Shown: piece after piece, positions 980 to 60,858 of the stretch | Layout: every line of letters starts with the position of its first letter | Numbering within the stretch: the stretch's first letter is position 1 | Assembly: GCA_034687125.1 (NCBI GenBank) | Contig: JAQGBZ010000135.1 | Span: forward strand, 91,153 to 155,152 | Length of the DNA stretch: 64,000 nucleotides | DNA from: Neelides folsomi | Lineage: Eukaryota > Arthropoda > Collembola > Neelipleona > Neelidae | Reading direction: 5' to 3' | Position numbers and translations under genes: made by a program | Notes under the pieces: generated by a model | The model's input: the letters and a program-made list of their open reading frames with translations, nothing else | What the model was told of the DNA's origin: nothing | Database searches by the model: none

Positions 980-2598
980 ATGATTGAGTCACTTTTGGAT
1001 TTGGCCAAGGCTAACCCATTTTTCAACCCGTTTCAAAAAGTAAACTGTGAAAGCGGGACTGAACAACCCTTGGCTAGGTCTTTGGTGGTGCCCAATAGAA
1101 ACATTGCATTCGCTTCGGCTGCACCTGCAGGTATATAAAAATGATAATGATAAATATGAATTAATAACAATCATACAATAAATAACTATTACTGACAATT
1201 TTGATTATTTGTTACAGAGGTTTATTCTTGTGAGTATGGTTCACCAAAGTTTTATGCTCTGTGTGGATTGGGAGGAGCCATTTCGTGTGGATTTACTCAT
1301 ACTGGTGTAGTTCCTCTCGATTTGGTCAAATGCCGTCTCCAGGTTAATCCAGACAAATACAAGGGTATATTCAACGGCTTCAAAGTGACGATTAAAGAAG
1401 ATGGCATGAGAGGTCTTGCTAAGGGATGGGCTCCAACTTTTATCGGTTACTCCATGCAGGTTATATTTCATTTATAAATTAATTGAATTATTGCATTCTT
1501 TAAAATTAATATAATAAATTTATATTAACAATGATTTACAAATTTTTAAAGGGATTGTGCAAATTTGGATTTTATGAAGTCTTCAAAATTTTCTACGCCG
1601 ATTTGATTGGAGAAGAAAATGCATTTTTGTGGAGAACTTGTTTGTATTTGGCTTCCTCAGCATCCGCCGAATTTTTTGCGGATATTGCCCTTAGTCCAAT
1701 GGAAGCTGTAAAAGTAAGTATTAAATAAATTAAAAATAAATTTTATAATAATAATATTAAAGCACGTTCATTAGATCCATCCACTCATTCTATGGGGGAT
1801 GAATGAGTCATAAGCGTGCAACACAAATGTCCATTGAATGGAATACAATTGTATACATTTGTGACACATTTTTAAAAAAAATATAACAATTTTATCTTAT
1901 AGTCTAATACATATAAAGAATGGTTAATAGATATTTCTGTAATTAATTTAGGTTCGGGTTCAAACTATGCCTGGATTTCCACCAACACTGAGACAAGCTG
2001 CTCCTATTATTTTCCAACAAGAAGGAATAATGGGATTCTACAAATCCCTGGTCCCACTTTGGATGAGACAAATTCCATACACCATGATGAAGTTTGCTTG
2101 TTTCGAAAGAACTGTTGAACTTCTTTACAAGTAAATCATTTTTAATATTGCGATTTATAAAATTTAATTATTTACTAAAATTATAATTTGGTTTAAAAGT
2201 TAATCGTTTCTCTATATAGGTATATTATATTTTTATTTATTTATTTCAGGCACGTTGTACCAAAACCAAGAGCCGATTGCACAAAGCAAGAACAACTTGT
2301 CGTTACATTCACCGCAGGTTACATTGCTGGTGTGTTTTGCGCCATTGTTTCTCATCCTGCTGACACACTTGTGTCCAAGTTGAATCAAGACAAAGGAGCG
2401 TCGTCGGGAGATATTATTAGGAAACTCGGATTTGCTGGTCTTTGGAAAGGCCTCACTGCCAGGATCATCATGATTGGAACACTTACAGCCGCACAATGGT
2501 TCATCTATGATGGCGTTAAAGTCGCCTTTGCTCTCCCGCGTCCCCCTCCACCCGAGATGCCAGAGTCTCTCAGAAAGAAGCTAGAAAAGAGTTCATAA
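980..2598 (+). CDS. SLC25A3: Mitochondrial phosphate carrier protein (SLC25A3 family), five exons, complete
   Basis: Imports inorganic phosphate (with H+ or in exchange for OH-) across the inner mitochondrial membrane for ATP synthesis. Exons are 980-1130, 1218-1459, 1552-1713, 1952-2130 and 2250-2598. All junctions are GT-AG and stay in frame, giving 360 aa, very close to the usual family length of about 360. The N-terminus (MIESLLDLAKANPF) resembles the targeting presequence of animal phosphate carriers. The mature part opens with EYGSPKFYALCGLGGA. The first carrier signature is PLDLVKCRLQVNPDKYKG, the second repeat has SPMEAVKVR, and the third is degenerate (HPADTLVSKL). These are the three PxD/ExxK/R-type motifs of the SLC25 fold, with six transmembrane helices expected. 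The ATG is the first in exon 1 and matches the family's N-terminus. The last exon ends in a proline-rich stretch and EKSS before TAA. Nothing appears broken. Family membership is essentially certain. Confidence 0.96.
1762..1819. repeat. Imperfect hairpin in intron 3 of the phosphate carrier gene
   Basis: Arms GCACG (1762-1766) and CGTGC (about 1815-1819) enclose a perfect inner pair, ACTCATTC (1783-1790) and GAATGAGT (1801-1808), around a 10-base loop. It lies in intron 3 (1714-1951). It could be a small MITE remnant or chance. Confidence 0.35.
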
Positions 2599-22800: not shown

Positions 22801-24167
22801 TGTATTATACATTTTTATATGGAAAATATGATAAAATATTTTGTTTATAGGTCGGTCAATATTCTCAAGAAGACGGATTAATATTGGATGTAATGCTCGG
22901 TCTTCATTCAGAACCAGAAATGAATCTTCAAGATGTGTTTACTGGTTCGGCAAGACCTCTCGGTCGCGATATAAATCGCGGAGGAGTCCGAAAAGGGAAA
23001 ACTGCCAAGGAGTCACATGAATTGTTAGAAAAAGAAGCAACCGAAGCGGCCAGACTTCGAGGAGAAGAAGAAACCGGAAACAGCGTGAATATTCTCGCAA
23101 TGGCTCCTCCTGAATTATACATATCAAGAGTGTGGGCAATGGTCGTCGTGGCGATCGGAATCACTGGAGTTTTCCTTGCCCTTTACATGCTCGTCTACGT
23201 CCTTCTCCGGATGTGTGACGGGACCCTTCATGGGAACCAAGTATTGGGAATTCTCCTTCTTCTAGGGGTCATGATGATGTACGCGAGTGTGGTCATGTTT
23301 GTACTACCACCAGGTCCACTTCTCTGCTCCCTCCGAGTTTTCCTCCCATCCCTTTCCATTGCCCTCTGCTTTGGAATTCTCCTCCTCAAAGTGATGCAAC
23401 TGAGGGCGCTTGTTTCGCTCGGGCTCGGTGGTCGGGTCTCGGCCCTCAACCAATTCGTCACCCTCACCTTCATCGTCGCAGTCCAAGTGGCGATCAACGT
23501 GCAGTGGGCCACTAGTCCGCATACAGAACCAACAGAAACAACAATTTTGTCCTCCAGCCTCAACGAGTGTTTGCATTCTCATGAGACTTTTCTCTACCTC
23601 CACAGCTATGTTGGCTTCCTCATCCTCTTTGTATTCATCTACGGGACTTCTGTGTTGAAGATCCGGAGGAATTACAATGAAGCGAGATGGGTGACGCTCT
23701 CAGCGCTTCTTTCCTTACCGGTGGCCATCGGATGGATCCTCGTTGTTTTCTTACGTCCAGGAGAAGATCAAGAACCGGCCGCGTGCATTGCCTTCGTGTC
23801 AATTGCATCGGTCATCCTTTTCTCTATATTTATTCCAAAATTGAGCACAATTGCTCAGCAGACCAGTTTGGCAAAGAGGAAGAAACTTCTTCAGTCTTCT
23901 GCTCCGGGGTATGCGGGATCCATTTCAACCATTTTTACGACATTGAGTGACCGTGGACACGGAACGTTACAGAGCCAGAAGAGACATTCGACGTCATATC
24001 CTCCGCAACCACCGCCCATGCCGTTGTCCAATGGACCAAAGTCCGTCACTTATTCCCCGAGGCTGACCACCAACATTTTCCATTCCTCTTCAGCTGCAAC
24101 TTCCCTTGCACGCTCTGTATCAATGAAGACTCCGTTCATGGATTCATCTCGAGGAGCTTATCCTTAA
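19848..24167 (+). CDS. Class C (mGluR-like) G-protein-coupled receptor without cysteine-rich domain, nine exons
   Basis: Coding exons: 19848-19941, 19993-20163, 20255-20356, 20744-20916, 20999-21187, 21324-21581, 21880-22047, 22328-22648, 22851-24167. All are GT-AG and in frame (930 aa). A signal peptide (about residues 1-22) is followed by a Venus-flytrap domain to about residue 420. Its landmarks are GVLVDLHQG, an early Cys, IVVHDTCGE (compare the mGluR DTC motif), GVIVIGSR and FTTAPDVSSVSEAI. A charged linker of about 160 residues with no cysteine cluster precedes seven helices at about 586-613, 623-644, 650-676, 693-711, 735-762, 771-793 and 802-823. Class C hallmarks are Cys651 at TM3, Cys732 in loop 2, NYNEAR before TM6 (mGluR NFNEAK) and FIPKL in TM7. 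The cytoplasmic tail is Ser- and Pro-rich (PPQPPPMP). The ligand is unknown: the mGluR serine triad position reads NNE, so glutamate binding is doubtful. It may belong to an orphan arthropod class C group. Possible N-glycosylation sites are NRT, NIS and NET. Confidence 0.9.
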
Positions 24168-32400: not shown

Positions 32401-34530
32401 ACCTGGATTCACCACGTCGTTCAAAACACAACGTTGACAGTTTTTCAAATCAACCTTCCTTGTATGTACTATGAGCATATTAAAATACCAGCCTCACTGA
32501 TCTCAGATTTGAACTCTCTGGATTAATTCCTCAGGACAAGAAAGCCTTTTGGGCTAATTTGGATCCCGAATTACAAGAAACATTCAATAATTATTTGAAA
32601 ATATTTGATAACTTATGTTAAAATATTTTATTTAATCCAATTTGTCTAGTATACAAAGCCTTTTTAATTGATGTACTAACATGAGAATTTTATGATTTGG
32701 AAAATTTAACTATAAAATAAACCTTTAGAAACGAAAAAATTAATCTTTCATTTTGAGATTTATGGATTTAAATTGCAAACACACATATATATATATATAT
32801 TTGAGATTAAGGTAAAAGTAATTTTAAGAGTACTTGATTACCAAAATGTAATTTAGCGCGCGGATTTAATAGACAATTTCGTGATTGTTAATGACTATCT
32901 GGTGCTTTATACGTCAACCCCATAATAATTCTTCAGTGGCTAGGAAGGAATTAAACTAATAATCTCTTCTTCACGATTGAGTCTTACGACCTTCCAAACT
33001 ACTTTAATACCAAGTCCGGGAAATCTAGACGAATCGTAAAAGATCAATAAAGCAAACCATCCGGAAATTCCATTAATTTTATAATAATTTAAGATTTCAA
33101 AAAAATAATCAAAATCTATATTATTTTTAGGTTGCCTTCAATATTACTTTGGTATAAGTATACTCTACCTACATATAGTTGATGCAAATGTATAGGATAC
33201 AAGCTGCAATAAATATGCCATGTGTAATGGCAGATGTAGCGTAGCTGTTTTATACCTTTATTGTATTACGTACTTATCAAAATAATGAAAAGTACTTATT
33301 GAAAGTATTCTGAGATTCAAAAAATTGGTTTAAAATTTACCAAAGGAAATGAAGTTATTAATATTTTGAATGAAGTCTTAAATTGAAGGAAGGTCTTTAG
33401 AGGGAAGAGTTTGCGATTAAAAGAACCGATGGTGAGTGGAAGATTGTTCTTAGCTTTTCGTTGCCATTAGTAAATGATAGTGACCGCCATCGGGTGAAAA
33501 CCACGAAGGGCAATGAAAATATTTACGTTAGCAAGAGTTAATGGTAAACATTTTGTGGAGTGTAGTTGATGACGAGATAAGTAAGTCTATTTAGTATCTG
33601 TATATGTATAGCAAATACTTCCCTGGAGCCAGCATTTTACCTGGAAACTTATGATCCCACTCCCCCCGTGGTCAAGTGTGTTGAAGACATAATGGGCGTA
33701 GTGGTCCGTGTTGGCTGAGAGAACGAAAGTCATTTATACATACACCATATAATATAGTATAATATAAATAAAGGGGTGGAATTAAATTGAGTCGCTCACC
33801 TCCTTGAGGAAAGAATTGGGCATATATGTCTCGGAAAGTATCTTCCTGAACGATACCCGAAGGGCACTCAGCCTTAAACCCACGGTAGATTCGTTTAATC
33901 TCACGCTCAGTGAATCTTGTGAGACGGCAGAGTGTTTGAATGCTTTCGGGTCTGTAACGGGGAGATCCGCTCTCGCTCTCGTCCAGTTCGGACTCTGTCT
34001 CATAATCAAAATTTTAATTACTTACAAAGTCTCATATACAAGACATTATTTTATTTCACTTTTAACAGAACACATTATATTTTTGTGAAATTGTGACATT
34101 ATAAGTACAGTCGTGAAGGCCTTGTGACCCATTGCAGTCTCTTTATGGGCATTAACGTTGCTTTTTCTTTACCTATTGGTGTCTACCCTTATTTATTTAT
34201 ATAAAATTTAAATAATGTTAGTTTATATACATAGTTGAGTTCTAGGTATATATAAATAGACGGATGTCTATAAGTTATATCATTATATTTATAATATAAA
34301 TTAATTTGGAATGAAATACTAACCATCATTAAAAATATACCAAGGTAAGTATTTATATTAAATGAAAATTGACCTAAGGCGAATTTGACACCGGTCCATG
34401 CTTGTCGCACAAAGTCGAGGAACCTTGAGTAAACAGTCTTCCGACGAGATGAGGAAACTCCTCGTTTCTGAATGCGAGTCTCCTCTTCGGTTCGACTCTT
34501 TGAGTGATCCGAGCTCACGACCCCGTACAT
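29443..34530 (-). CDS. KCNIP: Kv channel-interacting protein (KChIP) homologue, five exons
   Basis: A calcium sensor of the neuronal calcium sensor superfamily. KChIPs bind the N-terminus of Kv4 channels and tune A-type potassium current. Minus-strand exons: 34530-34374, 33994-33800, 33714-33641, 29921-29709, 29553-29443. All are GT-AG and in frame (249 aa). A variable basic N-terminus (1-52) and an acidic spacer precede the conserved core: [24 protein letters not shown] (degenerate EF1, CPSG), then [10 protein letters not shown]2 (132-143) reads [12 protein letters not shown], with Gly at loop position 3. EF3 (168-179) is [12 protein letters not shown] and EF4 (216-227) [12 protein letters not shown], both intact. 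[15 protein letters not shown] and the C-terminus SIGVFDTVI fit KChIPs better than frequenin or recoverin. No N-terminal myristoylation glycine is seen in this isoform. The frame is open upstream of the chosen ATG to an acceptor at 34563-34564, so the true start may be in an earlier exon and alternative first exons are likely. Intron 3 (3.7 kb) hosts an antisense transposon-like gene. Confidence 0.93.
31135..32621 (+). pseudogene. Decayed transposon-like gene (DUF7869-type protein), antisense in KChIP intron 3
   Basis: Pieces in successive frames form one recognisable but broken protein: [20 protein letters not shown] (31135-31335), [10 protein letters not shown] then [10 protein letters not shown] (to 31675), a GT-AG intron 31676-31784, [61 protein letters not shown], and a last part ending DNLC before TAA at 32619-32621. 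The order (xDLQxVLxTP, a YSDNCxGQN-like block, then HKFLxxGHSFxxxDxxFxxIE) matches a widespread family of eukaryotic mobile-element proteins, often annotated with DUF7869 and of unclear biochemical role. In-frame stops (after RDF and after LWHLT) and at least three frame changes (near 31945, 32330 and 32510) show it is dead. The family name is from memory of the motif order; a profile search would settle it. Confidence 0.6.
32622..33640. other. Rest of KChIP intron 3, no gene
   Basis: AT-rich with a short (TA)n run near 32787-32800. A patch of mixed composition at 33400-33600 has no coding frame. It could contain intronic regulatory sequence. Confidence 0.45.
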
Positions 34531-55849: not shown

Positions 55850-56435
55850 AATCAAGGGCTGTGGCTCATGCCGTCACCTCCTGCCGAAGTTCCACCTTGG
55901 AGATATGGTGGACCTTAAATTTGTTAACGAGGTCCGGACGGCGGTGTAATTGGAGAGTTCAGAGGGTGCCGTGGGCCGTCATTAGGAAACGACGGCCCCA
56001 TTCCCCTCTACCAAATGCAATGAGGTCGGGGAGTTAAACGGCCCGCGCTGGAGAGATTATTTCTCCCGAGTGGGTCAGGGCGGGAGCGGAAGGAGTGGGA
56101 CCGACGAAGGCGTGCGTAGGGAGCATACAGAGGCGGTGGTGGTCGCTGGGCTGCTCGGAGCAGAGTGACCTGTTCACGTCATCGCCGATACTTGGAATCG
56201 CGTGGATGAATGAAGAGAGTGAAGTCAGCCCGTGATGTCAGCGAGTTGTGGTGGTGGCGAAGCACTTGGAGGAAGAGGGGAAGGAAGAGCCGGCCGGTCG
56301 AGCCATCAGCTTCTCCCTAAGATGTGGATGACGCAGGCTGCAGGCTCCTCAGAGCTCGTCGTTGGGTGACAGGAGATTGAGGTGGCGGCGGGAGGACACC
56401 TGTTACAACTCCGAGAGCAGGGAAGTATAGATAGG
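55850..56435. other. Strongly GC- and CpG-rich block upstream of the cytokine-like gene
   Basis: The most GC-rich stretch of the window begins abruptly here and continues to about 58680 across the promoter, first exons and intron 3 of the gene at 56845. Position suggests promoter-proximal regulatory DNA. No complete frame of note in this part. Confidence 0.45.
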
Positions 56436-56474
56436 TATAAAAGCTCGGGCCTCGGCCGGACCACGACCAGTTGA
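56436..56474 (+). promoter_or_regulatory. TATA box plus initiator, core promoter of the cytokine-like gene
   Basis: TATAAAAG at 56436-56443 is followed 33 bases later by CCAGTT, with A at about 56469. This fits an arthropod initiator at the canonical distance. It sits in a GC-rich region where a chance TATAAAAG is unlikely, and transcription would run into the gene that follows. Confidence 0.6.
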
Positions 56475-56844
56475 AGACTTGCTAACCCAAGAGCCTGTAG
56501 ACCATTCGTTCAGAGAGACCCCAACACGACACCTTCCCGTGTAGGTTGCTGTGGGAAATAAATAGGGATTACCTCTCACTGGGATCCTCAGTTGTCGGAC
56601 TCGCGACGTACAAGCCTGACCTATCTCTGGTCCATGACCAAACCTGCTCACATAGTGTTCTCCACTCAACCTTTCGATTGCCATGTCCTCAGACGTCCAA
56701 AACCGTGTTGTCCCAACAGACACTTGTCGGTGTGCCCCGTTGTCCCCTGCCCTGCCCTCCCCGAACCCTCAACAGACCTTCGTTTTCGGTGAGTCGGTGT
56801 TGATACGTTTTTTACAATTTAACTCTTTCAATTTCCCTCAAAGA
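56469..56844 (+). other. Probable 5' untranslated exon and 55-nt intron
   Basis: From the inferred start site to a consensus donor (CG|GTGAGT at 56789) there are 320 bases, then a 55-nt intron ending in a pyrimidine tract and CAAAG (56843). The exon has upstream ATGs (for example 56634 and 56683). If the intron is kept, the frame from 56683 runs into the downstream coding frame, adding 54 residues rich in Pro. If spliced, it becomes an upstream ORF. Which form is used cannot be told from the sequence. Confidence 0.4.
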
Positions 56845-59800
56845 ATGAATGAACGTTCTGAATCTCAATTGGCCCCGCAGAGCACACTTATTCACTCGCT
56901 CACGTTGGAGAACATCCTTCATAGGAATTCCCAGCCTTCTGATTCATTCATTCATAACCTCATTCATATTCATTGGAGTGAGTTATGGAGTGCAGTGAGT
57001 TGGTCGAAGTTAACACACTTTGTTTCCTTTCAGGTTGGAGAAAGATCAGATTTTTGTGCATCTTCGTCGCCTTCTCGCTATTTCCCTTTGCCATGTCAAG
57101 TCCAGTGCGGGAGCACGGGAGAGGCAAAACCCATCACCCTGAGAAGTGGGTGAATCCCTGCGGCATCCCCAACATGACCGGATCGCTGTTCAAGTCCCAC
57201 GGATACCAGGAATCTAACAGCGAAATCTACTTGAACATCGTGACTCAAGTTAAGATGGCGATCGACCAGGCCGAAGAATTCATAGAGTCATTTGTAAGTA
57301 ACCCATGGTTTAATTGCCCAACTTATTCGCCGCTGCTCTCGCTATTATTGAGTCATCAATCCAAGACCATTTCCCCAAGATAGAGATAGGCCGCATGGCA
57401 CGTCGTGTGGGATTTTGTTGACGTCGGCGGCGCTTCCCGCTCTTCGTCCGTTGGGAGCCGGAAGTTGGGCAAGAGAAGTGGGAAGAGATGAGTAATAGGT
57501 CTGGTCGGCTGATGAGAGGGCCAGGTAGATTGGATAGGAGATGGGACAGAGGAATCCGTGCGGTGTGGGGCTAATGGGCCCGCCAGGAGTCGGGCCGAGG
57601 GCCGAGAAGGGATCATGTAATGGGACTTTGAAGTGACCAGCAGCGGAAAGGTTCAGGTCCTCCGTGCATGGAGTGAATGTGAGTCACTGGTCGGAACGCC
57701 CTCACCTTCGCCACCCCCGTCCGCGGAGTCAGCAGAGGCATTCCACCTCCGCGCTGATTACAGAGCGAGCCCTCTCTTTCTTCAACTCGATCTGTAATTT
57801 GTAGAGAGAGTGCCGCCGCTTGAAGCCCGCCGACGTACCTTCGCGCCTCACCCGCCAGTCCCCATCATTCAACTTGTCCATAAATATCTCCCCTCCCACT
57901 CACTCGTTCATTGATAGAGGAAAACACGAGCATTCTTGACCAGTCAACAATAATCGCCCACTTCCACCTTTCCCTCTTCTTCGCATTCCTCGTTTCTCTT
58001 TCCGACCCAGACCCAGCTTGGAGGGAATCATGAAGTCACCGTTGGCCAACATCTCCCACCTTCTCGGCTCCTGTCCTTTCAATCTCAATCAAAAGAGTGA
58101 ATCATATCAATTTTTCCAAGAATATATCGCCATCCGGTTCGCACATCCGTTCCATGATTAGATGCCCGGAGCTCGCCAAGATCCAAAGGTGGATCTGTCG
58201 GATCCCGGATCCTCAGAACCCTAACTGCCAGTAATGAGCCGTGACGTGGGCCGAGGATAATAAGTTCATTCATACGACCTGTTCAGCCATTGTCCCATTG
58301 TTACCATCCTCCTCGTGGAGCTGGAGAAGCTTCTCTCGGCTCCTCACCTTTTCAATGCATCCGCTTAGCTAATAAAACAAGGATCATTCGATGACTCCAT
58401 TTCCAAAGGAATCAGAGAGATGAGAACATTTACGAGAAAGGAAACGAGCGGAGTCAATCCATAAATGACATTTGGGTAACCCAAAGAGCTCCTTTGCATT
58501 CACACACGACACTCCTCCACATTTCACATGTTGAGCTCGCCGATGTTTCGAGGGACTTACGAGACAATTTAGCCACTTATGACCCTTTTCTTCCCAGTAC
58601 TTTTCCACGTCCTAACACGAGGGCTTGAGGTTGGGAAGACATGCTTTGACGAACATACGACCCTTCTTAATTCCTCCGTGTAGGACATAATTTCAATAGC
58701 ACATTATAAATAGGTAATCATCAGCCAATATAAAAACACGTTCATTCAAGTCCTCGTGACTTCTGCCCCCTTAAAAACCGCATGAAAGGAAACAGGTTCA
58801 AATTTGTACAAACCAATACCAAATTAGAATAAATGGCTTGAATAAATAATACACCTGTGTCTGGATGAGGAGTCATTCAAATTGCTCATCCAATTTCACA
58901 GAATATTTTATCAGCATTAATGAGAAGCATAAACTAGATAATGTTTGTTTGAGTAATGCAAAAAAAATCTAGCGTACTTTCAATTTCATACGCATAGTAA
59001 AAATTCATTCAACCTTTAAATGAGAATTCTAATAAATGATAAGCAATTATTGGATAATTTGTCATATTATGGTAAACCAACGATAAATTCTTATACTGAT
59101 GACAAAGCGAGCAGACCGTGAATGATTTGAGCGCCAAAAATAATACCAAGGCTAAGGGTTCTAAAAAAATATTTTATTTTTATTTTAGCACAGCGAGAGT
59201 TTTCAATACGAGAGATCTCAAGACAAATATAAAAATATTCATTATGATTTTGTCGAAACTGAAAATCCTGCTCTAATGAGTAAAATAGGAACCAAGAACA
59301 ACGATGTAGAGGAAATGACAGATAAAGATGTAAGTTTCTTTTTTTTCTCAATTCCATCTTTAAGAATCATTAACCAACGGGTTGGAAATCCGGATAGCAA
59401 CGAGAATGTCGTCAACAACTTCATATTTATTGGCTAACAATTTGTTGTATATTTATTTTTTTAAACATTGACACCGGCGACAATCGCAAAATAAATGTCC
59501 GTATCTAAGCATGTAGGTGTAAGATCAACTCATACATGGGTTAAATATTGTTAAACTAGGCTAAAATTAACTCATATTTTTCTTATCCAGGTTGAAGACT
59601 TAATTGCCAAGCTCTTTGCTACGCTTCAAAGGTTTGCCGTCGGTCTCGAACAGATTGTCTTAGATCAAGCAATCCATGGTGGCTCATTTCATCATCATTT
59701 CCACGAAGCGGAATTTCAGCTGAAATACGTAAGTTTCCATTATAACTTATTGAACATATTCCCTACCTTGTATTGGCAATCAATCAAAGTTGGGCTGAAA

Positions 59801-60858
59801 GTAAAAATGAAAGCAGATATTCAAAAGTGATATCTCTCACACCCCAAGACTCAAAACTCCTATAGTCTCCCCTCTTTTGTTTTGCTAGTATTTCGTAATT
59901 AAAAACATTTGAATTGGTTTGCCAGAGATTCGTCTCCTATTATAGATTACTTCCCAACATGAACATGCGGAGTCACACTCGTGTGAGTACAAATGGCTAT
60001 TGAGAGCCTAAAGATAGACAAGTGAAAGGCAAATAGACTTCAAAGGCTTATAAAATGTACAAAAGAGACTTGAACTAAAAATGAGATCCCCTCGAGTGCA
60101 TAAATTATCTAAGGAAGCGTGAGTGGAGGAAGGAAGGGAAGATAATTCGTATAATTGTGGCTCTTGTAGTGCCACTCTGGGCCCATTCGTTCACCCTCCC
60201 TTGTAAAAAAAGTATAATGAGGGGGAGAAGGGGTGTGAAAAAAATGATGAGTGCTAGAATTAATTAAAGTTGATAGAAAGTAAGAATTCTTTGAATCCGC
60301 CTCATGAACTGACGGCGAGGGTGCGAAGAGGATGTTCATTCAAATAGCCAAATGCCGACATATCCCTCAATGGAGAAGGATTGCGATTGAGGCTGCACAG
60401 GTGAACAACCGGGGAGAAACGGCCAAGATGTGTAGCAACATCTCTTTTGTCCCCCTTAAATACCTACTTTGAGATATACAGGTAAATATAGTTATGTGCA
60501 TCGAGAAAGGGTGTTCCGGTTGTTGAGTCTTGGGATGGGAAGCCTTTGATTGGGAACAGTCACAACGAGGGGCGGAGTGAATTGAAGAATCTGCGTCTAA
60601 TGGCCATTGGAGTCTAACAAGGTGTTTTTTCAGGTTCTTTGCGAGTTCCAACAAGCGTTGATCGAGAAGGGAGTCGTGTATGAGGACATCAAGAGAGAAA
60701 TCATGGGACAGAAAATCAGGGAGCTCGACGACGACAACATGAGAAAGTTCAGGGATTGGGTCATTTTCCGCGACTATACAACGACGCTCAAGTACATCGA
60801 GAAAACCTTTTTGCAGCTCAAGAACCAGGCAGAAAAGGACGAGGCCGAGAGTCCTTAA
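56845..60858 (+). CDS. Secreted helical protein, candidate four-helix cytokine-like ligand
   Basis: I do not recognise a named family. Exons 56845-56977, 57034-57293, 59189-59329, 59591-59728 and 60634-60858 join with GT-AG introns and an uninterrupted frame (298 aa). A hydrophobic segment FLCIFVAFSLFPFA (about 51-64) looks like a signal peptide, with cleavage near SSPVREHG. The long stretch before it makes the start uncertain: ATG 56845 is the first in this exon, while an unspliced ATG at 56985 gives a more normal 36-residue leader. The mature part has two cysteines (C87 and C227, one possible disulfide), a glycosylation site NMT, a His-rich loop (about 207-216) and four predicted amphipathic helices: about 104-136, 179-203, 217-236 and 257-288 (MRKFRDWVIFRDYTTTLKYI). 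This up-up-down-down-like plan and size recall the CNTF/IL-6 type long-chain cytokines that act through gp130/Domeless-like receptors. That is inference; a different helical secreted protein is possible. Confidence 0.75.
57294..59188. other. Large intron 3 of the cytokine-like gene, GC-rich first half
   Basis: 57294-58680 is GC-rich, with minus-strand frames up to 86 codons (57616-57356) lacking motifs. The rest is AT-rich. First-intron-proximal GC-rich DNA next to a TATA promoter could hold enhancers. Confidence 0.4.
59729..60633. other. Last intron of the cytokine-like gene
   Basis: Donor GTAAGT at 59729 and acceptor TTTTTTCAG ending at 60633. Minus-strand frames here (60339-60109 and 60654-60367) show no motifs, and the second overlaps the last exon; they are treated as chance. 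Confidence 0.55.

Follow-up and report, generated by a model that had tools for sequence, protein, structure and literature searches.

Among the signalling systems described in arthropods, the one that most resembles the gene reported here is that of Drosophila Unpaired (Upd1-3; Pfam family PF15972), a ligand of the receptor Domeless. The gene in question lies in a stretch of 64,000 nucleotides, called the window throughout, of the springtail Neelides folsomi (assembly GCA_034687125.1, contig JAQGBZ010000135.1, positions 91,153 to 155,152 of the forward strand) and is predicted to encode a helical cytokine. JAK/STAT genes are widespread in arthropods, and several surveys report Unpaired to be missing outside flies. 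For the honey bee, a 2006 paper on four immune pathways states that the ligand unpaired alone seems to be fully absent, and proposes a 'currently unrecognized ligand' (PMC1847501). Upd was likewise not found in the pea aphid (PMC2872881), in triatomines and other hemipterans (PMC5778769), in Varroa and ticks (PMC12027997) or in the locust, where it was considered perhaps Drosophila-specific, with Anopheles, Tribolium and Bombyx named in the same vein (PMC4624584). In the small brown planthopper, neither Upd nor Domeless was identified (PMC10069781), and a putative 'upd' of a stink bug is glossed as uroporphyrinogen decarboxylase (PMC7071726).

In a survey of the IL6 pathway from 2026, IL6 was found in vertebrates only (PMC13203501), and a shrimp paper calls the arthropod activators largely unknown (PMC9195186). 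The non-cytokine activators of Domeless reported in shrimp – a C-type lectin and peroxiredoxin 4 – are, like the protein discussed here, proposed extracellular activators of arthropod JAK/STAT, yet they belong to other protein families, whereas the window gene has a predicted cytokine fold.

On balance, we favour the explanation that the product of this gene is a long-chain class I cytokine, either secreted or signal-anchored, which is related to Unpaired and acts through Domeless and JAK/STAT. The evidence comprises the gene structure from exon 2 onwards, its conservation, the predicted fold of two relatives and the JAK and STAT genes present in the genome. The protein would pass through the secretory pathway, either to be secreted or to be signal-anchored and then released; it would fold into four helices, with A and B joined by a long loop, B and C by a turn of five residues, and C and D by a further loop; and it would bind a gp130-like receptor, most likely Domeless, as CNTF, IL-11 or Unpaired do, with receptor engagement then activating JAK and STAT.

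The gene is laid out on the forward strand as listed below, with helices placed by alignment to the predicted model of one relative, P0004.

56436-56443, + strand: TATAAAAG, a candidate core promoter element 5' of the gene, read from the sequence alone
56683-56788, + strand: preferred predicted exon 1, with ATG and the phase-1 donor TCG/GTGAGT (donor score, GWR junction)
56845-56977, + strand: exon 1 of the initial annotation, second-best (open and in frame, SWR junction, weaker donor)
57034-57293, + strand: exon 2, with the putative hydrophobic secretion segment (FLCIFVAFSLFPFA), the W-V-N-P-C motif and helix A (splice borders, homology, hydropathy; helix by alignment to the P0004 model)
57159-57161, + strand: first conserved cysteine, within W-V-N-P-C of exon 2
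59189-59329, + strand: exon 3, which covers the long A-B loop and is flanked by phase-0 introns (splice borders, homology, P0004 model)
59591-59728, + strand: exon 4, with helix B (AVGLEQIVLDQ), the short B-C turn (HGGSFH) and the start of helix C, likewise flanked by phase-0 introns (splice borders, homology, P0004 model)
60634-60858, + strand: exon 5, with the remainder of helix C, the C-D loop, helix D (RDWVIFRDY) and the stop TAA (splice borders, homology, P0004 model)
60640-60642, + strand: second conserved cysteine, in helix C, exon 5

Exons 2 to 5 have canonical AG/GT borders and form a single open frame ending in TAA; the first intron is in phase 1, so that exon 2 begins in this phase, and the last three are in phase 0. 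A search of the animal's own genome recovered exon 4 again, and exon 5 is the best own-genome match of P0004 (expectation value, E, 2e-15). The initial annotation had joined five exons in frame into a protein of 298 residues: its exons 2 to 5 hold, on both their borders and their homologues, and the product with its exon 1 is indeed exactly 298 residues long, but that first exon is probably misplaced. Among the compatible ATG/donor pairs tested from 56440 to 57030, the one at 56683-56788 has the top donor, which agrees with the consensus at 7 of 9 positions, as compared with 6 for the donor of 56845-56977. It also reads into exon 2 as GWR, the exon 1/2 junction seen in two of the four springtail-like relatives with sequence upstream of exon 2 (P0001 and P0103; P0005 and P0104 differ). 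For these two reasons, the predicted exon at 56683-56788 probably fits better as the first coding exon, and gives a product of 289 residues.

The 298-residue protein, searched against 5.8 billion proteins, returned four matches, 239-322 residues long, three of them from the named springtails Allacma, Orchesella and Folsomia. As these four match across exons 2 to 5, at E 9e-58 to 2e-50 and 42-45% identity, the gene lies far beyond chance. A profile of the four and the window's mature chain (profile 1) found 104 proteins at E <= 1, and a second, of nine distant members (profile 2), found 195 at E <= 10, the best 120 of which were listed; together they gave 142 distinct relatives. Those with organism names are all arthropods among the matches listed. 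Outside insects they include springtails, copepods (Eurytemora and Tigriopus), an ostracod, a scorpion and a spider mite, and within insects mayflies, a damselfly, a cricket, a katydid, a cockroach, a termite, stick insects, thrips, Hemiptera including Bemisia, beetles, Hymenoptera including Apis, and a caddisfly; flies and moths are not represented among the named matches listed (for profile 2, the best 120 of 195), which does not establish that they lack the family. No relative among these matches carries a precomputed Pfam domain, and those with a printed name are called uncharacterized, hypothetical or unnamed, except for one 'HutI_0' label (P0083).

In BLASTP, the window's mature chain shares 37% identity with a copepod member (E 2e-46) and 28% with a scorpion member (E 7e-20). 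In a tree of 28 rows – the window gene and 27 of the 142 relatives – the gene clusters with four Collembola rows (support 100/99), its eight well-supported forks agree with accepted groups, and the insect part is largely unresolved; the window gene itself sits on a long branch (1.18; the median is 0.53). The initial annotation had suggested, as one possibility, a helical hormone of crustaceans; the tree places it with springtails, not copepods. As judged from sequence, the family runs from chelicerates to insects, and is arthropod-wide rather than particular to crustaceans.

Conservation was read from an alignment (A3) of 81 of the 104 profile 1 matches, from which 23 near-duplicates and fragments had been removed by eye. 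Its invariant columns are, in P0004 numbering, P38, C39, Q146, E153, D158, L181, C182, E183, M203, R219, D220 and R225. The motif W-x-[NKES]-[PA]-C is lacking in eight of the 142 relatives, and from the motif onward exactly two cysteines are found in 106 of 134 proteins. A hydrophobic segment precedes it in 76 of the 79 proteins that have at least 40 residues there, although it is missing from many annotated models of relatives; in the window protein, this segment (in exon 2) has a mean hydropathy of 2.4 across 14 residues. The 234-residue part of that protein starting at MSSP contains exactly two cysteines, as had been stated for the mature part.

These two conserved cysteines, one before helix A and one in helix C, may form a disulfide. 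Two divergent tandem relatives lie elsewhere in the animal's own genome, near a transposase-like frame and a contig end (C130:157285-159506, minus strand). In copy 1 the helix-C cysteine is retained and the intron falls at the same position; no upstream exons of this copy were found. Copy 2 lacks the helix-C cysteine, and the part of it read next to the helix-A exon showed no NPC motif. This pattern is consistent with a disulfide, though no proof of one. A further observation concerns the long isoforms of insect relatives (P0024, P0025, P0065, P0131 and P0140 among them), which have in common an LDRDQRT-like motif well N-terminal to the hydrophobic segment; it could point to a cytoplasmic tail conserved in a signal-anchored form, and no such motif was found in the + strand frames of the window.

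The fold was modelled on two relatives, one of them P0004, and the window chain was placed by alignment; the second model was built with 60 of the 142 relatives. Both models are confident, and both have four long helices (residues 61-91, 134-161, 167-190 and 213-247 in the first; 79-108, 142-166, 174-197 and 221-255 in the second), with long connections from A to B and from C to D and a short turn from B to C, which is the arrangement of long-chain class I cytokines. The matches listed for them in the PDB are class I cytokines, and the predicted models share the three-dimensional fold of solved long-chain members over the whole domain. The best matches are of gp130 type, with CNTF, IL-11 and CLCF1 above prolactin and growth hormone in both VIA-align searches. 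Unlike these three proteins, with which it shares 9-14% sequence identity in the structural alignments, the family has named relatives in arthropods alone, and its IL11 profile score stays below the cut-off.

Assignment to the long-chain four-helix proteins of the IL-6/CNTF class is thus strongly supported by the predicted models, together with weak Pfam matches to Unpaired and IL11. This was also the proposal of the initial annotation; the four helices it described are found in the models of the two relatives and carried over to the window chain by alignment. It had added that sequence searches usually miss such proteins, and indeed the 298-residue protein alone found nothing significant in Pfam or the PDB. 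Profile searches of PDB sequences also gave nothing significant. Nothing in a viral structure library matched at E <= 0.001, the best rows being viral IL-10 homologues (E 0.25 and 0.31), and NCBIfam, a library for bacterial and archaeal genomes, gave none for the four relatives submitted.

Pfam scans covered the 81 members of A3 and then all 38 new profile 2 proteins. Unpaired matches four of the 81 (best P0075, 23.5 bits, E 4.7e-5) and seven of the 38 (best E 0.0018). Ranked by members matched, it comes third in the A3 set, behind Anticodon_2 (six, best E 0.075) and IL11 (five, best E 0.0023), and first among the 38 further relatives. The IL11 family (PF07400), with a cut-off of 25.8 bits, is matched below threshold by five of the 81 and one of the 38, best by P0102 (18.0 bits, E 0.0023). 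Individual tables cover 70 of the 81 A3 members as well as P0004 and P0122, and tallies cover the fifth IL11 match and the seven later Unpaired matches.

The register of the matches inspected is consistent. With profile positions counted from the nearer end of each match, VGLEQ falls at position 130 and LCE at 161 in all four Unpaired matches of the A3 set (a beetle, a bee and two unnamed), and NPC at 28 in all three that reach it; the alignment is collinear, spanning helices A to C. In the four IL11 matches inspected of the five (a beetle, a spider mite, a wasp and one unnamed), VGLEQ lies at 78 and LCE at 109 from the match start; counted from the end, LCE lies at 109 in three and at 105 in one.

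Several points limit this link to Unpaired. The matching relatives number 11 of 119 in total, all below the 27-bit cut-off; the window protein itself matches neither Unpaired nor IL11 in Pfam; and the matches are weak taken singly, in members that are related to each other. Nonetheless, weak matches in a consistent register, combined with the fold, make common descent with Unpaired likely. The gene is not filed as a member of that family because the curated cut-off was tested and not reached. Compared by way of the Pfam profile, it resembles Drosophila Unpaired in the NPC/VGLEQ/LCE register and in belonging to an arthropod with JAK and STAT; it differs in its best score, 23.5 of 27 bits, and in occurring in lineages where surveys found no Upd.

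The initial annotation had suggested a ligand of Domeless/gp130 type. In the animal's own genome, the FERM part of a JAK matches JAK2 (E 2.4e-9), with tyrosine-kinase-like frames adjoining, and a STAT matches STAT5B (E 7e-114), whereas searches with fn3, WSxWS and IL6Ra-bind identified no Domeless. The fn3 search gave 94 matches, and the 30 loci fetched contained two WSxWS-like motifs, neither of which was considered to mark a candidate Domeless. As a DNA pattern, WSxWS gave no useful signal (2006 + 2012 matches, against 816 + 789 in the control). Profiles of Unpaired and IL6Ra-bind found no match, and neither did they in the controls, so that absence is not established. A survey of arthropod immunity reports Domeless and Hop in most species, but no clear Hop in a spider, a mite or a scorpion and, in the scorpion, no Domeless (PMC4833078), which counts against Domeless as the partner in every lineage. 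Taken together, we lean slightly towards Domeless as the receptor.

The main rival keeps the class I helical cytokine and replaces Domeless with CRLF3. This is still an orphan receptor, described as having no known endogenous ligand; crlf3 is absent in Drosophila, and a locust hemolymph factor acts through it (PMC6797617, PMC8063046). The family is present in Orthoptera and beetles, with no fly among the matches listed. However, absence from flies is not established by a list of the best 120 of 195 matches, the weak sequence link points to Unpaired, a Domeless ligand, and CRLF3 is placed near the Epo receptor group (PMC6797617), whereas the best fold matches are gp130-type cytokines. We therefore consider CRLF3 unlikely.

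A four-helix hormone from the prolactin/growth-hormone side, with a receptor not yet described in arthropods, is somewhat less probable again: CNTF, IL-11 and CLCF1 outscore these hormones, and no Pfam family of prolactin or growth hormone is among the matches listed. Least probable is a non-cytokine four-helix protein – a carrier, inhibitor or intracellular protein with convergent likeness to cytokines. None of the outcomes named at the outset as fatal to a cytokine was seen: the models are four-helix bundles, no non-cytokine family was matched above its cut-off, and homologues back the joins of exons 2 to 5.

For an Unpaired-related cytokine acting through Domeless, a wider reading, on which we are evenly divided, is that the family represents the ancestral arthropod class I cytokine, possibly the protostome counterpart of CNTF/IL-11. 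It would then be the ligand long missing from the JAK/STAT pathway in bees, beetles, crickets, crustaceans and arachnids, with the fast-changing Unpaired proteins of flies its derived descendants. The family offers a candidate for the missing ligand of non-fly arthropods, in pollinators, pests and crustaceans, and bears on whether the class I cytokines of vertebrates and arthropods have a common ancestor. No report of it as a cytokine or as an Unpaired relative, and no mention of six locus names of its members, was found in the literature searched; preprints and most subscription journals fell outside that scope, and an earlier description is possible.

As for the rest of the window, Rfam at gathering thresholds gave no match anywhere in the 64 kb. 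G+C content is 0.458 at 56001-60000, centred on the cytokine-like gene, against 0.255-0.385 in the other 4-kb blocks. Three further putative coding segments were noted: a long open frame at 22851-24164 (+ strand) similar to class C receptors in their seven-helix part, with a match to metabotropic glutamate receptor 2 at E 6.7e-11; an exon of a Kv channel-interacting (KChIP-like) protein at 33675-34013 (- strand; E 1.9e-19); and, at 2197-2595 (+ strand), an apparent mitochondrial carrier exon, in a frame that weakly matches mitochondrial uncoupling protein 2 (E 9.5e-5).
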